From the NCBI GenBank assembly GCA_030538425.1, contig JAUNTZ010000006.1, positions 26,204 to 90,203 on the forward strand: a stretch of DNA of 64,000 nucleotides, given 5' to 3'. This stretch comes from Paracoccus sp. (in: a-proteobacteria) (GTDB taxonomy: Bacteria > Pseudomonadota > Alphaproteobacteria > Rhodobacterales > Rhodobacteraceae). The position numbers were made by a program, and so were the translations under genes. A model generated the notes under the pieces. That model was not told where the DNA came from. It worked only from the letters and a program-made list of their open reading frames with translations, and ran no database searches. Below are positions 3,765 to 45,224 of the stretch, one piece after another; within the stretch, counting starts at the first letter, position 1, and each line of letters begins with the position of its first letter.

Positions 3765-6700
3765 TCAAGGGCGCGGCGCAGGATGCAAACCGGCCATGAC
3801 CTCATCAAGCAGCGCATCCGGCAGGACCATCACCGCGCGTGAGGCCGTCCACAGCACCGCCACCTGAACAGGCAAAGCAGGCCAGATCCCGCGCAGCGCC
3901 GCGCGATAGGCGGCCATCTGGCGCAGAATGCCCAAAGGCACGGCCTCTGGCGCGGCGGGAACGGTCGCGTTGGTCTTGTAATCAATCGCCATGATCCGGT
4001 CGGGCGCAATCACCAGCCGGTCGATAATCCCCGACAGCAAGCGGCCATCGGGTAAAGGCGCGGCAAGCGGCACCTCGGTAAGCACTTCGGCGCCATCCGC
4101 CAGCTCAAAAACCGATGCCAGATCGGGCGCAGCCAGAACCGCCGTGGCCTCCTCCAGCAGAAGCGCCAACATCTCCGCATCGGGCAAGCCACCCTCAGCG
4201 CCCGATAGCAGATCAGCGGCGCGCGCGGGCCATTCCTCTGCCGCGACGCCCGGCAGATGCTCCAACAACAGATGCAGGCGCACGCCGAACAGCATCGCCG
4301 CCGCCGCATCATCGCCCACCGGACCGGGCAGAGCCTTGGCTCCGCCGAGCCCCGTCGCCGCAACCGGCGCGGGTGGCGGGGTCCAGGCGGGCGGCGCGGT
4401 GTCAATCCAATCGGGCAGCGCCGGGGGCGGCTCGTCCGCGTCCGCCTCACCGACCGAGGCAGGCCAATCGCCATGCGCAAACCGCGTCACTTGACCAAAA
4501 TCGCGGGGCTCTGTGCTGCATGTCAGCTTGGCCGAAGCCAACCCCTCGGCGATCATGCCATACCAATCGCGGCCCGATCCCGTCTTGCCCGCCGCCGCCA
4601 CGATCAGCCAGGATTCCGCCCGCGTCATCGCGACATAAAGCAGGCGCTTGCGTTCCTCGATCTGGCGGGCGGTGGCCTGATCGACTGCGTCCTGCGCGAA
4701 ATCGGGCCGCCCGGCCTTGTTGCCCGTCAGCATCGCGGGACCGCCCTCCAAGCGCAGGATCTGCGGCGGATTGGGGCTGCGGCGCTCGGCGGTGTCGGGC
4801 AGGATCACCACCGGGCTCTCCAACCCCTTTGAGCCATGCACCGTCATCACCCGGATCAGCCCCGCGCCGCTGCCTTGCTGGCGGCTGATCTCAACATCAT
4901 CGCCCGACAGCCAGACCAGAAACCCGGTCAGCGAAGGGGCCTCGGACCGCTCATATGCCAGAGCCTGCGATAACAGCTCATCAATCCCGTCCTCGGCCTC
5001 AGCACCCAGCCGTTGCAACAGCCGGTCGCGCCCGCCATGGCGCACCAGCAGGCGCGACATCAGATCATAGGGCCGCAAATGCGAATGGGCCATCATGTCG
5101 GACAGGATCGCCCGCGCGTCGGCATGGTCCGCCGCCTCGCGCAGCGCCTCCCACAGATAGCCCTTGCGCGCATGGGCCAGCCGGAACAAAGCGTCCTCAT
5201 CCAAGCCAATCAGGGGCGAGCGCAGCAGTTCCGCCAGCGACAGGTCATCCTCCGGCGTGGCCAGAAAGGAGATCATCGCGCGGATATCCTGCACCGCCAG
5301 CTCTGCCGCCAGCCGCAGCCGGTCCGCCCCCGCCACCGGCAATCCCGCCGATTTGAGCGCCCGCAGGATCTCACCAAAGAGCGGTCCCTTGCGGCCCTGC
5401 ACCAGTATCAGAATATCGCCCGGCCCCATCGGACGCGGCCCCTTCGAGGTCGGAATCGCGGTTCTCGCGTCCAGCATCGCCTTGATTTCGCGGGCCAAAG
5501 CCTCGGCCAGCAAGGTGGGCGCGCTGTCGGGCGCCAGTTGGTCAAGGGGGCTGTCCCAGGGCTGTTCCTCGGGCGCATCAGGCGGCTCAAAAACCGGCCA
5601 AAGATCGACCCGCCCCGGCATATCGCCGTGAAAGGCGCGGTGCCGCGCAGCCTGTCCCAAGCCATCACCCGCCGACCCCGCAAAGGTCGCGTCCACGGCT
5701 TGCAGGATCGCCGGGGATGAGCGGAAAGAATATTCCAGATCAAGGCGTTGCATCGGTGCCTGCACCGCCTCAAACGCCGCAGCAAAGCCGTCGCGGCGGT
5801 CCTCGAAGACGGCGATATCGGCGCCCTGAAAGGAATAGATCGACTGTTTCGGATCACCCACCACGAACAGGGTGCGGTTGCGGTCCGAGGCGCCCGCCGT
5901 GAACTCGGCAGTCAGCGATTCCACCACCTGCCACTGACCGGGTGAGGTATCCTGCGCCTCATCGACAAGGATATGGTCAATGCCACCATCCAGCCGGAAC
6001 AAAACCCATTGCGCCATCGCGCTATCGGACAGCAAAGCGGAAGCGCGACGGATCAGGTCGTCAAAATCAAGCCAGCCATTCTGTGCCTTGCGCGCCGCGT
6101 AACGCTTTGAAAACAATTCCGCAAATCGCAGCATCGCCGCTGAACGCGCAACAAAGCCCGACGCGATCCGGGCCGGGCGCAGGTCGGCCACGGCATCCGC
6201 CAACGCGTCGATCCATTCCGCCAGCCCGTCCGGCAAACCGGCCCGTGTCGCCTTGGCTGGAAAGCCGCCCGCCTTCGATCCGAACGGGCTTTTTGCACTG
6301 CCACCGAACAAAAGCTGGGCTTCCAGAATCGCCGCCTCAGCCGCGCCGGGCGCGTCCCAATTTCCCGCGTTCAGCGCCGCAGCGCCCCTCTGATCCGTCA
6401 CCCCGCCCGCCGACATGGCCAGAACCAGCTCGCGCATATGATCGGCGCGAAAACCCGCGAACAGATCGGCCAGAATCTCGTCAGGCGCCGCCGTCACTCC
6501 GGCCAGTTCCGCCAGCCGCTCAGCGTCACTCGCGCGAAACTCACCCGCGCCAAGCTGCGCCAGAAAGCTGTCGATCCCCTCGCCCGAGTGAATCGCGGTC
6601 AGGTCGCCCATCTCAGGCATCTCATCGCGGGCGATTTCCTCCAGCAACTCGGCCCGCAGGTTCGCGGCGCTGCGGTCGTCCAGCTCAGAAAAACCATGCG

Positions 6701-15881: not shown

Positions 15882-16685
15882 ATGACCGCCACCAACCTTG
15901 CCCAATCCGTCGGGCGCGAATTGCCCTTTCTGCGTCGCTATGCGCGCGCCCTGACCGGCAGCCAGAGCGCCGGCGACAATTACGCCGCCGCCACGCTTGA
16001 GGCGATCCTGGCCGACCGCTCGATGATTGAGGGCGACGATATCCGCATCGCGCTGTTCCGGGCTTTTCATGCGATCTGGTCCAGTTCGGGCCAGCCGGTG
16101 GCGGATGCCGATGGCGGCACGCGGGGTGCTGCGGCACAGGCGCATATGGCGCGGCTGACGCCCAATTCGCGTGAGGCGCTGTTGCTGCGCACGATTGAGG
16201 AAATGCGTTACGACCAGATTGCGCAGATCATGGGCGTTGACCAGGCTGAGGCTGAGGAACTTGTCCGCATCGCCCTGACCGAGATGGGCAGTGCCATTCG
16301 CGGCAAGGTGATGGTGATCGAGGATGAGACGATCATCGCCATGGATCTCAAGGGTATCGTGCAGGCGATGGGCCATGACGTGACCGGCATCGCCCGCACC
16401 CATAGCGCGGCGGTCAAGCTGGCGGGCGAAAAGCGGCCCGACCTCATTCTGGCCGATATTCAGCTGGCTGACGGTTCGTCCGGCATCGACGCGGTGAACG
16501 AATTGCTGGCCGATATGGGCGATATTCCGGTGATCTTCATCACCGCCTTCCCGGAACGGCTGCTGACCGGCGACCGCCCCGAACCGGCCTTCCTGATCTC
16601 AAAACCCTATTCCGAGGAACAGGTCAGCTCGGCGGTGTCGCAGGCGATGTTCTTTGCCTCGACCGAAGGGCTGGGCGCGGCCTGA
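15882..16685 (+). CDS. phyR: Anti-anti-sigma response regulator PhyR
   Basis: PhyR releases EcfG from NepR. The 267-residue protein has the diagnostic architecture: an N-terminal sigma-like domain at about 1-135 (LPFLRRYARALTGSQSAGD; LTPNSREALLLRTIEEMRY) and a C-terminal receiver domain at about 142-262. The phospho-acceptor is Asp192 (LILADIQLADG), acidic residues are in VIEDE (145-149), and the conserved Lys is in LISKPYS. It is divergent from nepR-ecfG across 94 bases. The ribosome site before the ATG (GAGGA) is moderate. Phosphorylation by the neighbouring HisKA_2 kinase is inferred. Confidence 0.96.
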   Translation: MTATNLAQSVGRELPFLRRYARALTGSQSAGDNYAAATLEAILADRSMIEGDDIRIALFRAFHAIWSSSGQPVADADGGTRGAAAQAHMARLTPNSREALLLRTIEEMRYDQIAQIMGVDQAEAEELVRIALTEMGSAIRGKVMVIEDETIIAMDLKGIVQAMGHDVTGIARTHSAAVKLAGEKRPDLILADIQLADGSSGIDAVNELLADMGDIPVIFITAFPERLLTGDRPEPAFLISKPYSEEQVSSAVSQAMFFASTEGLGAA

Positions 16686-19413: not shown

Positions 19414-20002
19414 GGCGGGCCTCGATTTCGGTGCAAATGGCGGCGACGGCGGCGCGGGCCGCGTCCGGCGTGTCGGTCGGGATCACCCAATCGGCGCGGG
19501 CGCGCTTTTCGGCATCGGGCATCTGCCGCGACAGGATCATGTCAAGCGCCGCATTGGTCATGCCGGGCCGCGCCAGAACGCGGGCGCGCTGCGTCGCGGC
19601 GTCGGTCGAGACCACCGCCACCCCATCCATCGCCGCCTCCGCGCCGGTTTCAAAGAGCAGCGGAATATCCAGAACCGCGATCCGCACCCCCTCGCGCCGG
19701 GCCTGATCCAGAAATGCCGCGCGATCCGCCGCGACAAGGGGATGCACAATCTTTTCAAGGCGTTGCAGCGCGTCGGGCGCGGCGGCGAGCGCGGTTTTCA
19801 GCGCCTCACGGTCGATTGCATCATTGCGGAGCGCGTTCGGAAAGGCTTCGCCCACAGGCCCGACCGCCGCGCCGCCTTGTCCGTAAAGCCGGTGCACCGC
19901 CGCGTCGGCATCCCAGAGCGCCGCGCCATGTTCGGCAAAGATCCGGGCGGTGGTCGATTTGCCCATGCCGATGGAGCCGGTCAGACCAAGGCGGAACATC
20001 AC
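19406..20002 (-). CDS. coaE: Dephospho-CoA kinase
   Basis: CoaE phosphorylates dephospho-CoA in the last step of coenzyme A synthesis. The 198-residue length is usual. The P-loop GSIGMGKST lies at 9-17, the CoA-binding/lid segments include GAALWDADAAVHRLY and LDIPLLFETG, and the lid Arg run is ATQRARVLARPGM. The ATG at 20000-20002 overlaps the aroE stop by 4 bases (ATGA), and the 3' end overlaps dnaQ, so the three genes form a coupled operon. Confidence 0.96.
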   Translation of the reverse strand: MMFRLGLTGSIGMGKSTTARIFAEHGAALWDADAAVHRLYGQGGAAVGPVGEAFPNALRNDAIDREALKTALAAAPDALQRLEKIVHPLVAADRAAFLDQARREGVRIAVLDIPLLFETGAEAAMDGVAVVSTDAATQRARVLARPGMTNAALDMILSRQMPDAEKRARADWVIPTDTPDAARAAVAAICTEIEARHA

Positions 20003-20850
20003 AGCACGGCCTGGCGGGTGGCGGCATCGACCTCAGGCCTGCGCCCAAACCAGCGTTCGAACCCCGGCACCGCCTGATGGAGCAGCATGCCCAGACCATC
20101 GACGACCTGACAGCCGCGCGCCTGCGCCTCGGCCAGAAACTCGGTCATCAGGGGGGTATAGACCAGATCGGTGACGAGCGTCTCGGGCGACAGAGCGTCA
20201 AGCGGAAGGCGCAAAGGTGGCTGGCCCTCCATCCCCATCGAGGTTGAGTTGACGAGCGTATGCGCGCCCTCGATCATGTTGCCCGCCTGCGCCCAGTCAT
20301 AGACCACGACGCGGGCGCCGAACTCAGCCTTGATCTGGTCGGCGCGGATGCGGGTGCGGTTGGCGATGCGCAACTCAGTCACGCCGGCCTCAAGGAGTGA
20401 GGCCACCACCGCCCGCGCGGCCCCACCCGCGCCGATCACCGCCGCCGGGCCAAGCGCCGGAATCCAGTCCGGTGCGTTTTGTTCAAGATTGGCGATGAAG
20501 CCGTAACCGTCTGTATTATCGGCGTGAATCGTTCCATCAGGCCGAAAGATCAGCGTATTTGCCGCCCCGATCAGCGCGGCGCGGTCGGTGACGATATCGG
20601 CCAGCGCCAGCACCGCCTCTTTATGCGGGATGGTGACATTCGCGCCGACAAAGCCAAGCCGAGGCAGGCTGCGCAGCGAGGCCGCCAGATGTTCCGGCTG
20701 CACCGCCAGCGGAACGTAATGCCCCGCAATCCCGTAGGTTTTCAGCCAATGGCCATGCAGGCGCGGCGAGCGGGAATGCGCAATCGGCCAGCCGATCACC
20801 CCGGCAAGGGGGGCGTGATGGGGGGGTTTGATGTCACTTGGCTGGCTCAT
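19999..20850 (-). CDS. aroE: Shikimate dehydrogenase
   Basis: AroE reduces 3-dehydroshikimate to shikimate with NADPH in aromatic amino acid synthesis. Key features: substrate-binding SRSP (26-29), catalytic Lys77 in NVTIPHKEA, Asp114 in DNTDGYGF, and the nucleotide-binding AAVIGAGGAARAV. The start chosen is ATG 20848-20850, giving 283 residues; an in-frame TTG two codons upstream (20856) is less likely. This is the first gene of aroE-coaE-dnaQ(-yihY). Its promoter must lie in the 386-bp candidate origin region. The 5' end therefore borders the DnaA-box cluster. Confidence 0.96.
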   Translation of the reverse strand: MSQPSDIKPPHHAPLAGVIGWPIAHSRSPRLHGHWLKTYGIAGHYVPLAVQPEHLAASLRSLPRLGFVGANVTIPHKEAVLALADIVTDRAALIGAANTLIFRPDGTIHADNTDGYGFIANLEQNAPDWIPALGPAAVIGAGGAARAVVASLLEAGVTELRIANRTRIRADQIKAEFGARVVVYDWAQAGNMIEGAHTLVNSTSMGMEGQPPLRLPLDALSPETLVTDLVYTPLMTEFLAEAQARGCQVVDGLGMLLHQAVPGFERWFGRRPEVDAATRQAVL

Positions 20851-21236
20851 GTTCAATTTGATAGCGCGGGCCGCGGAGCGTTGAAAGGGCCTTATGCGTC
20901 GCTGCTGGGGGTGGTTCTGTGGGTGAGCCTGTGGACAATCCTGTGGGTGAGTATGGGCGGGCTGAGGGCGGTGGATAAGGGGGCGGAACCTACCCGGAAC
21001 CGCGGCAAAACATCCACATGGGATATGTCCGCGACAGCTATCCTCAGCCTGGGGACAGTTTGGTTTCCTATCTCTAATACCATGAATATGAAAGGTAAAA
21101 TCGTGATGATGTGGGGCTTCTTCTGTGGATAGTCTGGGGACAACCGGGTTATCCCGATATCAACAGGGCTTACATCATCATCTATTCTTTCTTTCTTTTA
21201 TATTATTTAAGAGAGGGGCGGTAAGAAGGTGGCACC
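20851..21236. other. Candidate chromosomal replication origin (oriC)
   Basis: This 386-bp gene-free stretch separates divergent aroE and hemJ. DnaA-box-like 9-mers (consensus TGTGGATAA or its complement) occur at 20930-20938 (TGTGGACAA), 20970-20978 (GGTGGATAA) and 21124-21132 (TGTGGATAG), each one mismatch away. Two-mismatch copies lie at 20918, 20942, 21010, 21135 and 21149. The copies at 20918, 20930 and 20942 are spaced exactly 12 bases apart. A T/A-rich tract, 21181-21211, with TATATTATTTAA-like sequence, could be the unwinding element and abuts the hemJ start. Gene direction changes here, and dnaQ, mnmE/mnmG/rsmG and parAB are close, as near many bacterial origins. No long open frame with coding character is present. 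Confidence 0.7.
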
Positions 21237-21683
21237 ATGTCGGGCATATTGGCGGTTCTTTATCCTTGGGTGAAAGCGGTTCATATCATGGCCGTGCTGT
21301 CATGGATGGCCGGGCTGTTCTATCTGCCCCGGCTTTATGTTTACCATGCTGAGCGCGGGCAGACGGGGGTTGAGCCTGCGGCGTCTTTCCTGATCATGGA
21401 GGACAAGCTGATGCGGGTGATCATGGCGCCTGCGATGGGGGTGACATGGATTGCGGGCATCCTGCTGGTGCTGACGCCCGGCATTGTCGATTTCTCGATG
21501 ATCTGGCCCTGGACGAAGATGGTTGGCGTTCTGGGGATGAGCTGGTTTCATTCCTATTTGCGCGGTCAGCGGCAGGCTCTGGCCGAGGGCCGGGGGTTGA
21601 GCGGGCGCAGCTATCGGTTGCTCAATGAGGTGCCGACGGTGCTGATGATCGTGATTGTCGTCTCGGTGGTGGTGAAGTTCTGA
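21237..21683 (+). CDS. hemJ: Protoporphyrinogen oxidase HemJ
   Basis: HemJ is the membrane-embedded enzyme that oxidises protoporphyrinogen IX in heme synthesis in many alphaproteobacteria lacking HemG/HemY. The 148-residue protein has four hydrophobic helices. The family signature is at the N-terminus, KAVHIMAVLSWMAGLFYLPR, with the conserved His16 proposed as a heme ligand, and a later KMVGVLGMSWFH segment carries further conserved residues. An AAGGTGG site precedes the ATG. It is the first gene to the right of the candidate origin; its promoter and leader overlap the AT-rich tract. Confidence 0.93.
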   Translation: MSGILAVLYPWVKAVHIMAVLSWMAGLFYLPRLYVYHAERGQTGVEPAASFLIMEDKLMRVIMAPAMGVTWIAGILLVLTPGIVDFSMIWPWTKMVGVLGMSWFHSYLRGQRQALAEGRGLSGRSYRLLNEVPTVLMIVIVVSVVVKF

Positions 21684-24339: not shown

Positions 24340-26193
24340 GTGTTTCACGTGAAACATTATGATGTGATCGTGGTTGGCGGAGGTCATGCCGGTCTGGAGG
24401 CCGCGATGGCGGCTGCGCGGATGGGCCGCAGCGTCGCCCTGGTGACGATGGCCGAACGCGATATCGGAACCTTGTCCTGCAACCCGGCGATTGGGGGGCT
24501 GGGCAAGGGGCATCTTGTCCGAGAGGTCGATGCCATGGACGGGGTGATCGGGCGTCTTGCCGATCAGGCTGGGATACAGTTTCGGCTGCTGAATCGCCGG
24601 AAAGGGCCCGCCGTGCAGGGGCCGCGAACGCAGATTGACCGGGGCGCCTATCGCGCGGCCGCGAAGGCGGCTCTGGATGCATCGCCTGTCGATCTGATTC
24701 TTGGTGAGGTGTCTGAGATCATCATTTCTGGCGATACCGTGACGGGGATTCGCGTCGGCGATGACGCGGTTAATGCGAGCGCCGTCATTCTGACGACCGG
24801 CACCTTCCTGAACGGTCTGATCCATATCGGTGAGGAAAGCCGCCCCGCCGGACGCTGGGGGAACGCGGCTTCCAATCGGCTTGCGGCGTTTATTCGTGAT
24901 CTGGCGCTGCCGCTGGGGCGACTCAAGACCGGGACGCCTCCGCGTCTTGCGCGTGACAGCATCGACTGGGCGCGGCTGGATGTGCAGCCAGGGGATGATG
25001 TCCCCGAAATGCTGTCATTCATGAGCGATGCGCCGGTCCTTCCGCAAATCGCCTGCGGAATCACGCATACAAACGCGCAGACTCATGAGATCATCCGCAC
25101 CAATCTGTCGAGGTCAGCGATGTATGGCGGTCGGATCGAGGGCGTCGGCCCACGCTATTGCCCGTCAATCGAGGACAAGATCCACCGTTTTGCGGATAAG
25201 GACTCCCACCAGATTTTTCTGGAGCCCGAGGGCGTTGACAGTGATCTGGTATATCCCAACGGCATTTCGACCTCCTTGCCAGCTGATGTTCAGGTTGAAT
25301 ATGTGCGATCCATCGGCGGTTTGGAACGGGCCGAGATTGTTCAGCCCGGCTATGCCGTCGAATATGATTATGTGGATCCGCGCGCGCTGTCCCGGGATCT
25401 TTCGGTTCGCGGGCTGCGCGGGCTTTATCTGGCGGGCCAGATCAACGGGACGACCGGCTATGAAGAGGCGGCGGCGCAGGGTCTGGTCGCGGGGCTGAAT
25501 GCGGCGCGCCCAGATCAGGAGGCGGTCGATTTTTCGCGCGCCAACTCTTATATCGGCGTTCTCATTGACGATCTGATCACGCGGGGCGTGTCAGAGCCTT
25601 ACCGGATGTTCACCTCTCGCGCCGAATTTCGTCTGTCGCTTCGCGCTGACAATGCGGATCAGCGCCTTACCCCAATGGGCATCGATTCGGGCTGTGTTGG
25701 CGATACGCGCAAGGCGGCCTTCACCGAAAAGATGGATCAATATCAACGCCTTCGCGATGCCTTGGAGGGGATATCTGTGACCCCGCGTGATGCAGCGGAG
25801 GCCGGAATCGCGCTTAGTCAAGACGGCCGGCGCCGCTCTGGCTTTGAGCTTTTAGGCTTGGCGGGGGTTGAGATTGAAAACCTCAACGACATAGCCAACC
25901 TTCCCAAAGCCCCCGCGAATATCGCACGGCAGCTCAAGATCGACGCAACATATGCGCAATACACCGAGCGCCAGATGCGCGAGGTTGACATGCTGCGTCG
26001 CGATGAGGCTGTCTCAATCCCGCGAGATCTTGATTATCACGCAATGTCTGGCCTTTCCAATGAACTAACGGCCAAGCTCTCCGCGGCGCAGCCCGATAAT
26101 ATCGCGTCGGCGGCGCGGATTGAGGGCATGACCCCGGCGGCGCTCTCGCTGATTCTCTCCGCGATTCGCCAAAGCGACAGAAAGCGCGCCTGA
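24340..26193 (+). CDS. mnmG: tRNA uridine-5-carboxymethylaminomethyl modification enzyme MnmG
   Basis: MnmG (GidA) is the FAD-binding partner of MnmE. At 617 residues it is normal. The FAD-binding motif GGGHAG is at 13-18, followed by [18 protein letters not shown] and the late [18 protein letters not shown]. The start is a GTG at 24340, 6 bases after the mnmE stop, with AGGA 4 bases ahead. Its first codons are supplied by a perfect parS site (24341-24356), so the protein begins FHVKH, as in many alphaproteobacterial MnmG proteins. It ends in a 1-base overlap with rsmG (TGATG). Confidence 0.98.
24341..24356. promoter_or_regulatory. parS centromere site 1
   Basis: TGTTTCACGTGAAACA is a perfect 16-bp match to the bacterial parS consensus bound by ParB. 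It overlaps the start codon and first five codons of mnmG. It is about 3.1 kb from the right edge of the candidate origin and about 3.2 kb upstream of parB. Confidence 0.95.
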
Positions 26194-26783
26194 TGGATGT
26201 TTCACGTGAAACAGAGGCGCTCTTCACCCAATATGCCGCTCTGATCCGAAAGTGGAATCCCGCCATAAACCTGGTCGCGCCCGGAACGCTGCCCGATCTC
26301 GAAACGCGCCATATCGCGGATTCAGCGCAGCTATTTCAACATGCAGGCGCAAAATCGGGCCTATGGTGTGATCTGGGTTCGGGCGGCGGCCTGCCAGGCG
26401 TGGTCGCAGCGATCCAGGGACGCGACCACCCGGTCACCTTTCGCTTGATAGAAAGCGACAGCCGAAAATCCGCCTTCCTCAATACCGCCCGGCGAGAACT
26501 GGGCTTGACCCGGCTCAACATCGTCAACGCCCGCATCGAACAGGCGCCACCCGCCGCCGCAGATATCGTCAGCGCCCGCGCTTTGGCCCCCCTACCGCAA
26601 TTGCTCACCTATATCTCGCGCCATATCAAACCGGGGGGCAGCGCGATCCTGCTGAAAGGCCGGAGCTGGCAACAAGAGGTGGACGCCGCGCGGCAGGCGT
26701 GGCAATTTAATCTGGAAACTTGGCCAAGCATGACCGAACCCGGCGCCGCGATCCTCAAACTGACCAATCTAGAACATGGCTGA
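26193..26783 (+). CDS. rsmG: 16S rRNA (guanine527-N7) methyltransferase RsmG
   Basis: RsmG (GidB) methylates N7 of G527 in 16S rRNA. The 196-residue protein has a SAM-binding Rossmann fold: WCDLGSGGGLPGVVAA is the SAM motif, followed by LIESDSRKSAFL and ARALAPLPQLLTY. The N-terminus [11 protein letters not shown] is encoded by the second parS site. Loss of RsmG gives low-level streptomycin resistance in other bacteria. It is coupled to mnmG (TGATG) and overlaps parA by 8 bases. Codon third positions here and in parA are C-rich, unlike the G/T-rich rho-mnmE-mnmG stretch just upstream. Confidence 0.97.
   Translation: MDVSRETEALFTQYAALIRKWNPAINLVAPGTLPDLETRHIADSAQLFQHAGAKSGLWCDLGSGGGLPGVVAAIQGRDHPVTFRLIESDSRKSAFLNTARRELGLTRLNIVNARIEQAPPAAADIVSARALAPLPQLLTYISRHIKPGGSAILLKGRSWQQEVDAARQAWQFNLETWPSMTEPGAAILKLTNLEHG
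26198..26213. promoter_or_regulatory. parS centromere site 2
   Basis: A second perfect TGTTTCACGTGAAACA lies 6-21 bases into rsmG and is read as VSRET (with one flanking base on each side). It is 1.86 kb from site 1. Two perfect sites immediately upstream of parAB are typical of alphaproteobacterial parABS loci. Confidence 0.95.
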
Positions 26784-27555
26784 CACGAAAATCATTGCCG
26801 TTGCCAACCAGAAGGGCGGCGTTGGAAAAACCACCACTGCGGTAAATCTGGCGGCGGGGCTGGCCAAACGCGGCCGCCGCGTCCTGATCGTCGATCTCGA
26901 TTCGCAAGGCAATGCGTCTACCGGGCTGGGCTTAGGACCGCGAGATCGTGAGCGGAACTCGTTCGATCTTCTGCTCGGCGACGCCGCCATCGCCGCCACG
27001 ATCCAAAAGACCGCCTTCGACAATCTCTCGGTCATTCCCTCGACCCAAGACCTCACTTCGGCGGATGCGGACCTCGCAAATCACAAGAATCGCACGCAAC
27101 TTCTGTCCAAGGCGCTGCGCGACCTGCACGGCTTCGACTATGTGCTGCTCGACTGCCCGCCCGCGCTTGGCCTCATCACGCTGAACGCGCTGATCGCCGC
27201 CGACAGCGTCCTCGTCCCCCTTCAGGCCGAGTTCTACGCGCTTGAGGGCCTCTCCCAGCTCATCCTCAGCATCCGCCAGGTCCGCGACACCGCCAACCCC
27301 CGCCTGCGGATCGAGGGCATCGTGCTTACCATGATGGACGCCCGCAACAAGCTGGCCCAACAGGTTGAGGCCGATGCCCGCGCAACGCTGGGCGACCTGG
27401 TCTATGCCGCCTCGATTCCCCGCAATGTGCGCATCTCAGAGGCGCCCAGCTACGGCATGCCCGTCCTCGCCTATGAGGAAAACTCAAAGGGCGCGCAGGC
27501 TTATCAGGACCTTGCCGACGAATTTCTGTCCCGCCAGTTGGAGACCACAGCATGA
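26776..27555 (+). CDS. parA: Chromosome partitioning ATPase ParA
   Basis: ParA is the Walker-type ATPase that moves ParB-parS complexes and so separates sister origins. The 259-residue chromosomal-type protein has the deviant Walker A KGGVGKTT at 13-20 with the signature Lys, Walker A' IVDLDSQGNAS, and Walker B VLLDCPPALGLIT. There is no N-terminal DNA-binding extension of the plasmid (type Ia) kind. It overlaps rsmG by 8 bases and parB by 4 (ATGA), so rsmG-parA-parB are translationally coupled. Confidence 0.97.
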   Translation: MADTKIIAVANQKGGVGKTTTAVNLAAGLAKRGRRVLIVDLDSQGNASTGLGLGPRDRERNSFDLLLGDAAIAATIQKTAFDNLSVIPSTQDLTSADADLANHKNRTQLLSKALRDLHGFDYVLLDCPPALGLITLNALIAADSVLVPLQAEFYALEGLSQLILSIRQVRDTANPRLRIEGIVLTMMDARNKLAQQVEADARATLGDLVYAASIPRNVRISEAPSYGMPVLAYEENSKGAQAYQDLADEFLSRQLETTA

Positions 27556-28430
27556 GCAAACCCAAGCCGCGCGGTCTGGGCCGCGGCCTGTCCGCCCTGA
27601 TGGCCGATATTGAGACGCCCGACATCGCGACCGCTGGCGATAGCGCGCAAGGCGCCGCGACGCTCACCGTCCCGATCGAGCAGATCAGCCCGAACCCTGA
27701 TCAGCCCCGGCGCAGCTTTCAGCCCGAGGCGCTGCGCGAACTGGCCGATTCTCTGCGGGTGCGCGGAGTGATCCAGCCGCTGATCGTGCGTGAGCATCCC
27801 GATGGCGGCGGTCTTTACCAGATTGTCGCGGGTGAACGGCGTTGGCGCGCCGCGCAGATGGCGCAGTTGCATGAACTTCCGGTCATTATTCGCGAGTTCA
27901 GCGACTTGGAGATGCTTGAAGTCGCGATCATCGAAAACATCCAACGCGCCGATCTCAACGCCATCGAAGAGGCCGCCTCTTATCGGCAATTGATGGACCG
28001 CTTCGGCCATACGCAAGAAAAAATGGCCGAGGCGCTTGGCAAAAGCCGCAGCCATATCGCCAACCTGCTGCGCCTGTTGAACCTTCCCGATCAGGTGCAG
28101 GAATGGGTCAAGGGCGACCAGCTTAGCGCCGGTCACGCGCGCGCGCTGATCACCGCCGATAACCCAACCGCGCTTGCCCGCAAGGTGATCGACAAGGGCC
28201 TCTCGGTGCGTGAGACCGAAAAGCTCGCCAAAGGCGCCGGGACGCGTCCCGCGCGGCAACGCCCGACCGATGAGGCCGATGCCGACACCCGCCTGCTTGC
28301 CGCCGATCTGTCGGCGCAACTGAAAATGCAGGTGCGGATCAAACATGCCGGGCATGATGGCGGCCATGTGATCATCACCTATCGCGATCTGGATCAGCTG
28401 GACCGGCTCTGTCAGGCGCTCGCCGGTTAG
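27552..28430 (+). CDS. parB: Chromosome partitioning protein ParB
   Basis: ParB binds parS, slides as a CTP-dependent clamp and loads SMC. The 292-residue protein has the basic N-terminal ParA-binding peptide (KPKPRGLGRGLSALM), the CTP-binding domain with GERRWRAA at 94-101 and ENIQRADLNAIEEA, a helix-turn-helix at about 138-165 (HTQEKMAEALGKSRSHIANLL is split over it), and a C-terminal dimerisation segment ending DRLCQALAG. Its targets are the parS sites in this window. The gene end overlaps the convergent hemW by 4 bases. Confidence 0.97.
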   Translation: MSKPKPRGLGRGLSALMADIETPDIATAGDSAQGAATLTVPIEQISPNPDQPRRSFQPEALRELADSLRVRGVIQPLIVREHPDGGGLYQIVAGERRWRAAQMAQLHELPVIIREFSDLEMLEVAIIENIQRADLNAIEEAASYRQLMDRFGHTQEKMAEALGKSRSHIANLLRLLNLPDQVQEWVKGDQLSAGHARALITADNPTALARKVIDKGLSVRETEKLAKGAGTRPARQRPTDEADADTRLLAADLSAQLKMQVRIKHAGHDGGHVIITYRDLDQLDRLCQALAG

Positions 28431-45155: not shown

Positions 45156-45224
45156 TGCCTTTCGGTCGCTGCCGGAATGTGAGACAAGTTCGCCAATTCT
45201 TGCCAACAGAACAAGGTGCAGAAG

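Follow-up and report, generated by a model that had tools for sequence, protein, structure and literature searches.

The available part of PMC1914354 places the mapped Caulobacter origin between hemE and COG1806, which carries DUF299. In the BUS of Bacillus subtilis, which comprises boxes 6/7 and the DnaA-trios, DnaA captures two bases of the trio according to the accessible text of PMC10721633, G by Arg202 and Glu228 and A by Asn187. At the middle position, T or G impairs opening and C is tolerated. The strand runs 3'-G20 G19 G18 A17 T16-5', as read from the base numbering in the same text. E. coli oriC, in the available part of PMC4285127, has arrays of low-affinity DnaA sites on strong boxes. 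For the family itself, the accessible portion of PMC6699656 gives Ori-Finder predictions for 101 Rhodobacteraceae chromosomes, chosen by DnaA boxes, a local GC minimum and proximity to parAB, and PMC8116508, as far as its available text goes, describes dnaA as conserved close to ori in Rhodobacterales.

We analyzed the gap between the divergent aroE and hemJ genes of a Paracoccus-like genome, which the initial annotation had put forward as a candidate chromosomal origin. The proposal is supported by conservation, by the genome-wide uniqueness of an unwinding module, by a match of this module to hemE gaps and by strand polarity in relatives. On these grounds we predict, with high confidence, that the gap is the oriC of the main chromosome. 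Boxes, a local GC minimum and nearby parAB mark the gap as they mark the Ori-Finder set. Unlike the available part of that set, we provide a map of the boxes and an unwinding module.

The window, the whole 64,000-bp stretch that was analyzed (G000:C5:26204-90203), is part of a 2.69-Mb draft in 92 contigs. The draft is 87% complete, which limits the evidence, as do a p value of 0.15 in G046 and a hemJ without the module in G040 (both below). The best named matches of HemJ are Paracoccus records at 60-73% identity. Assignment of the genus set to Paracoccus is also suggested by L112 and L095, whose box positions and gap lengths look identical to those of the named Paracoccus loci L003 and L002, respectively. 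The gene order dnaQ-coaE-aroE, gap, hemJ-rho-mnmE-mnmG-rsmG-parA-parB bears out the earlier statement that replication and segregation genes are close by. Among these calls, hemJ scores 137 bits at a curated cut-off of 138.05, parA matches models only below their own cut-offs, and parB passes the cut-off of the ParB domain model. The parS sites suggested near the gap are present as exact 16-mers at 24341 and 26198. A third parS-like site with one mismatch is found at 2633-2648, 18 kb left of the gap. A gene for a PhyR-type response regulator (15882-16685) is the sixth leftward from the gap by manual count.

Features of the predicted origin region (positions in the window)
Feature	Position	Strand	Remark
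Gap between aroE and hemJ, predicted oriC	20857..21236	.	52% GC; window 64%
aroE, left flank	19999..20856	-	
hemJ, right flank	21237..21683	+	
12-bp phased triple of DnaA sites: 20918, 20930 (stronger, TTGTCCACA), 20942	20918..20950	-	
DnaA box, 1 mismatch	20970..20978	-	40 bp from central array box; aligned site in relatives
DnaA box, 2 mismatches	21010..21018	+	aligns with boxes of clade relatives
Degenerate DnaA box, 2 mismatches	21038..21046	+	
DnaA box, 1 mismatch	21124..21132	-	well conserved in clade alignment
Degenerate DnaA box, 2 mismatches	21135..21143	-	
Unwinding module, match of profile R1	21138..21216	+	
Two tandem degenerate DnaA boxes, 21149 TTATCCCGA and 21157 ATATCAACA, 2 mismatches each	21149..21165	+	adjoin trinucleotide tract
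AT-/pyrimidine-rich DNA unwinding element (DUE)	21171..21211	+	least stable 40-mer of window
Putative trio-like trinucleotide tract CATCATCATC	21173..21182	+	
parS-like 16-mer, exact	24341..24356	+	
parS-like 16-mer, exact	26198..26213	+	
parA and parB	26776..28430	+	

The gap contains a dense cluster of DnaA boxes. The three one-mismatch boxes reported at 20930, 20970 and 21124 were verified, and the several two-mismatch copies proved to be part of a set of 10 boxes with up to two mismatches, compared to an expectation of 0.59 at the window-wide density. This is the densest cluster in the 64 kb; at the same threshold, no more than 4 boxes per 400 bp are found elsewhere. The number of one-mismatch boxes in the whole window is 7 against 3.65 expected, an enrichment that is not clear, as 9 of 100 shuffles reach 7. 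It is the clustering of the boxes that counts, and not their number in the window. AT accounts for 84% of the AT-rich tract noted at 21181-21211, and no 40-mer of the window is less stable than the one that begins at 21171. A box cluster and an adjacent AT-rich unwinding element, two features expected of an oriC, are both found in the gap.

Similarity at the DNA level is of little use for following the gap. A search of 101 genomes returned its own copy and 8 weak short matches, and among the latter only that of G059 is located at the hemJ-side module. Because divergence of the gap is too rapid for DNA similarity searches, profiles were used. hemJ is present in 100 of the 101 genus genomes searched. 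Our genus set consists of the window and 99 relatives (L092-L120, L131, L200, L217-L284), with the 450 bp upstream of hemJ read for boxes. Every one of these 100 loci has at least one box with one mismatch, 99 have at least two and 88 at least three (1 to 7 per locus, mean 4.21). In total, 421 boxes are located near hemJ, compared to 2 in 111,499 bp farther upstream (the rest of the 1.5-1.6 kb). In 53 of the 100 loci, CCACAGG occurs no more than 110 bp upstream of hemJ. The boxes are also kept in the wider family. Across 80 named family loci, 229 boxes are found in 35.7 kb and 184 in 895.8 kb, corresponding to 6.4 per kb within the 450 bp and 0.21 per kb elsewhere, and 72 loci have at least two. 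The 9-mers, whose lack of conservation would have spoken against an origin, are conserved in the genus and in Rhodobacteraceae. Three of the 80 (L041, L046 and L077) have no box in the 450 bp, and hemE intervenes in L046 and L077.

The left flank is more variable. aroE adjoins in 77 of the 100 genus loci, 14 of which have a short gap of 349-380 bp and are referred to as the window's clade. The remaining 23 have no divergent aroE start within 700 bp of hemJ, indicating that the left flank was altered while the boxes and hemJ were retained. In L007 (Paracoccus sp. DMF-8), the left neighbors are a Rieske oxygenase alpha subunit gene and a ferredoxin reductase-like gene.

The 12-bp steps between the TGTGG copies at 20918, 20930 and 20942 are exact, as the initial annotation had described, and none of 100 shuffles matches this triple, even with up to two mismatches allowed. 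The spacing had also been called unusual for DnaA boxes. This does not hold, as 12 bp is more frequent than any other close spacing in genus origins. Same-strand CCACA cores 12 bp apart form 27 pairs, found in 25 of the 100 loci and at several distinct places. At all other spacings up to 28 bp, the count is between 0 and 7 pairs, and 12 bp is the top spacing up to 45 bp. Longer spacings are also populated, with 24 pairs at 29 bp, 15 at 35 bp and 11 at 38 bp. Random placement, a control that leaves relatedness in, gave 3.7 pairs at 12 bp and a maximum of 10 in 1000 runs. Conservation around the central box was analyzed with 13 of the 14 short-gap loci; L221, which has no central box, was omitted, and L228 and L284, whose placing is doubtful, were included. 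With the window left out, 10 of 12 clade members have GG at the -12 site and 9 have it at the +12 site, the top two offsets after the center. The +40 box is next with 8 of 12, and the mean over 88 offsets is 1.83. The average identity of these segments is 44%.

It is improbable that the phasing in the window arose by chance. The window is alone among the 100 loci in having the perfect triple, and the 29-bp spacing is almost as frequent as that of 12 bp, so that shared descent of box positions accounts for part of the peaks. A chance origin is at odds with the 27 pairs observed against 3.7 at random placement, and with the GG conserved at -12 and +12 in the clade without the window. The 12-bp step is also not foreign to DnaA, since the BUS search in the available part of PMC8287927 permits up to 3 bp between tandem boxes, which corresponds to the same step. 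A stronger box with weak neighbors is conserved in the clade, and the triple of the window is this arrangement in its strongest form. The phased array is a real and ordinary feature. It resembles the arrays of E. coli oriC, as presented in the available part of PMC4285127, in combining a stronger box with regular weak sites. It is short in comparison, with three sites, and the number and order of boxes differ.

The hemJ-side end of the gap aligns across the family, in the order of a box, a GC-rich stretch, CCCTAC, CATCATC and a T/C-rich tract. We built a sequence-only profile of this region, R1, from 28 sequences without Paracoccus in the record title, so that the genus was held out. In the window, R1 matches 21138-21216 with an E of 1.7e-11; the runner-up, with an E of 0.1, is within the same gap. 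The match at 21138-21216 is the sole one in the whole genome. Among 61 genus genomes, R1 has a match in 59, and the best match is directly upstream of hemJ in all 59, with places compared by eye. A further 11 matches in the 61 genomes have E values of at least 0.018. R1 found nothing in G017, where hemJ was not found, and in G040, where hemJ is present. At the level of loci, R1 matches 99 of the 100 in the genus set and 45 of 49 further named loci, two of which (L032 and L081) were among its building sequences. The 45 include L046, where module and boxes are ahead of hemE; L061, L065, L076 and L077 gave no match.

R1 also extends beyond the family. A match with an E of at most 0.01 is found in 63 of 190 genomes of the class; many of these matches are weak, and some come from genomes with thousands of first-look candidates, in which a match by chance is likely. 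We examined our own genome, two members of the family and nine loci from other families (L288-L296), the latter out of the top-scoring genomes. Eight of the nine are flanked by hemE on one side and, on the other, by PF03618, which we take to be the later name of DUF299 (seven loci), or by Maf (L293). The module faces hemE in all eight. In L294, a SIS-domain gene is present and hemE was not found, and this locus was scored as a miss. An apparent flip of the module relative to hemE in L288, L291 and L295 was rejected, since the match is on the minus strand of loci that had not been re-oriented. With eight of nine loci in hemE gaps and the Caulobacter origin at hemE/COG1806, the gap is tied to the known alphaproteobacterial origin site, to which, on sequence evidence, the profile made here leads.

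The neighborhood is thus of the same type as that of C. crescentus Cori and other hemE-linked origins, and the R1 module is shared by the eight other-family loci, which do not include Caulobacter. Unlike in the Caulobacter-type origin, the directly adjacent flanks are hemJ and aroE and not hemE. The gap also contains no full CtrA site TTAA-N7-TTAA and no GANTC, again unlike the Caulobacter type; TTAA-N6-8-TTAA is found in 8 of the 100 genus loci. In two loci of the related set, L046 and L077, hemE is located between the DnaA boxes and hemJ. This arrangement resembles an intermediate of the Caulobacter and Paracoccus types.

These loci bear on a different reading of the gap, as a DnaA-regulated divergent promoter region for aroE and hemJ that is not an origin. 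The module abuts hemJ in the 59 matched genus genomes and probably overlaps the hemJ leader, as this reading would have it. In L046, however, hemE intervenes, and the module (4882-4950, a weak match with an E of 0.003) and the boxes at 4678, 4795, 4849 and 5026 are all found in the Maf/hemE gap or at the hemE edge, roughly 1 kb away from hemJ. L077 weakens this point, as it has the gene order of L046 and two boxes (4666 and 4678) but no match to the model. In other families the module fronts hemE and not hemJ, and in G038 strand polarity turns at the gap. We consider a promoter region of this kind very unlikely.

The polarity of G038 supports the gap as an origin. Across bases 1-160000, the cumulative GC skew is lowest at 79,499, close to the gap (about 78.8-79.2 kb) and far from dnaA (458). 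In a sampling of the whole chromosome, GGGNAGGG occurs 52 times forward and 15 times reverse on one arm, and 9 and 52 times on the other. The corresponding counts in G046 are 39/18 and 17/50. The local split at the G046 gap is 7/12 against 20/13 (p 0.15), and this genome has no local skew minimum at the gap. With both genomes pooled, the stretch from dnaA to the gap has 13 forward and 31 reverse copies and that from the gap to 160 kb has 41 and 20 (Fisher p 1.7e-4). In G129, the skew falls past dnaA (2,473 kb), flattens from about 2,620 kb and shows a local rise near hemJ. Its minimum over the 400 kb read, at 2,646,736, belongs to a broad plateau and is 49 kb away from hemJ, and the polarity change point is uninformative. 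The sampled GC skew of G007 is noise with no pattern, one stretch and half of another being N.

The contig of the window is less informative. The initial annotation had claimed that most genes run leftward on the left of the gap and rightward on the right. This is true for the nearest genes but not beyond them. By a rough longest-ORF count, 3965 aa are encoded leftward and 2661 aa rightward on the left, and 7477 aa rightward and 6801 aa leftward on the right, which makes gene orientation a weak argument for an origin. The 90-kb contig has no skew minimum at the gap; its minimum is at window position 45163 and probably reflects the leftward genes of the 28-45 kb region. Neither gene orientation nor local GC skew in this contig is enough to locate the origin.

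dnaA is next to the origin as a rule in many bacteria. As stated before, dnaA is absent from the window; it is located on contig C8 and truncated by the contig end. The origin could thus be beside dnaA and the gap a remnant. Besides the general rule, this is favored by the numbering of G008, G023, G038 and G046 from dnaA and by the location of dnaA and hemJ on different contigs in our genome. It is opposed by the distance between dnaA and hemJ, which is 56-871 kb in 10 genus genomes (measured round an assumed circle in G008), and by the pooled polarity of G038 and G046, where the stretch between dnaA and hemJ belongs to one arm. R1 has no match (E up to 1) in 11 dnaA loci (L001, L121-L125 and L166-L170), and C8 has one box in the 5 kb read beside dnaA. 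An origin at dnaA is therefore hardly credible. G006 and G011 have 17 and 25 PF00308 matches in addition to dnaA, in groups of equal score, which are probably copies of IstB-type transposase helpers.

We compared the unwinding module with the Bacillus subtilis BUS (boxes 6/7 and DnaA-trios). Both share the order of box, GC-rich stretch, trinucleotide tract and AT-rich DUE, and in the module the boxes at 21149 and 21157 are beside the tract. After the box, the genus consensus reads CCCTA, complementary to the G20-T16 strand of B. subtilis as numbered in the available text of PMC10721633. The triplets that follow differ, being mostly 3'-GT(T/A)-5' and not 3'-GAT-5'. Triplet anchoring retained 91 of 93 distinct rows. 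In these, the top-strand triplets are mostly, in order, CTA, CAA/CTA/CAT, CAA/CAT, CAT/CAA and CAT. C is first in 84, 73, 74, 77 and 75 of the 91 rows at the five successive triplets, and the middle base is T, corresponding to A on the trio strand, in 75, 32, 11, 1 and 7. The triplets of the window are TTA CAT CAT CAT CTA. The eight other-family loci have CAA, CCA, CAT and CTA triplets, and L292 is nearly canonical. Within the rest of the family, with these eight and L046 included, a run of at least four C at period three is found in 40 of 82 sequences and in 21% of shuffles, with some of the runs outside the tract (L013, L044). Many Ruegeria and Roseovarius rows have no such run, indicating that the period is looser outside Paracoccus.

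The DnaA protein also differs from that of Bacillus. The DnaA of our genome (452 aa, end missing) was aligned to 8btg, with residues numbered by hand and columns read by script. Ile190, Glu228 and Glu183 are unchanged. Lys replaces Arg202, Leu replaces Ile193, and Asn187, which reads the middle adenine in the BUS, is replaced by Tyr (Tyr209). Tyr is found at this place in all 11 genus dnaA loci and in 29 of 31 class loci, the other two having Phe; one of the 31, L354, came from the phylum search. In total, Tyr or Phe is present in 42 of 42 alphaproteobacterial loci examined and in none of 27 from other classes of the phylum, which have Thr (8), Asn (8), Ala (7) and Gln (4). These loci are the best 30 of 56 class matches and the best 30 of 60 phylum matches and not a random draw; 24 class matches, including the lowest-scoring ones, are outside the count. 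The available text of PMC10721633 describes the base-capture residues as chemically similar and not universally conserved; the word Alphaproteobacteria does not occur in it.

Two interpretations of the tract were considered. The module may be a canonical Bacillus-type BUS with no variant code, where ATC repeats 8-14 bp from the box serve as 3'-TAG-5' trios that keep the middle A. We give this somewhat less than an even chance. The published NAN rule asks for three NAN triplets within 16 bp of a box, and the window has ATC three times, 8 bp past the 21157 box. NAN runs, counted in 36 bp from 4 bp past the box, average 5.3 against 3.9 in shuffles (n=91), and 49 of the 54 loci that pass the rule begin with ATC. 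However, these 54 are drawn from 97 distinct genus loci, a fraction under the 65% of shuffled sequences that pass close to the box. In addition, adenine is absent from the trio strand in the CAA tract of L293 and, beyond the first triplet, in the CCA tract of L296.

Alternatively, Alphaproteobacteria may use a recoded DnaA-trio, in which G keeps the period of three, the middle A is mostly changed to T (3'-GT(A/T)-5') and DnaA has co-changed, with Tyr or Phe for Asn187 and with Glu228, Glu183 and a basic residue at 202 kept. We put this forward tentatively, as a possibility that falls short of likely. The changes in tract and residue within one clade amount to a single evolutionary coincidence and are no proof of co-evolution. 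A CAN-type tract in place of the 3'-GAT-5' trios of Bacillus may be new and is unproven, and the strand-opening sequence of the gap may be read by rules slightly unlike the textbook ones.

From known DnaA biology, we infer how the predicted origin would work. DnaA would occupy the stronger boxes first and then spread to weak neighbors, including those 12 bp on either side of 20930. The two tandem degenerate boxes on the hemJ side would place DnaA on the border of the unwinding module. From there its filament may extend along the complement of CATCATCATC in the neighboring trinucleotide tract and open the AT-rich DUE, where the helicase would be loaded. Sister origins would then be moved by ParAB via the parS sites 3-5 kb away.

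The analysis places the predicted Paracoccus-type origin to within a few hundred bases, although dnaA is tens to hundreds of kb away in ten relatives. In a set of 61 genus genomes consisting mostly of drafts, the R1 profile located the site in 59. If the recoded trio is true, the base-capture code of DnaA would be clade-specific, and its reading of single-stranded DNA would have changed along with the origin sequence. This would be relevant to the difficulty of finding a universal origin code.
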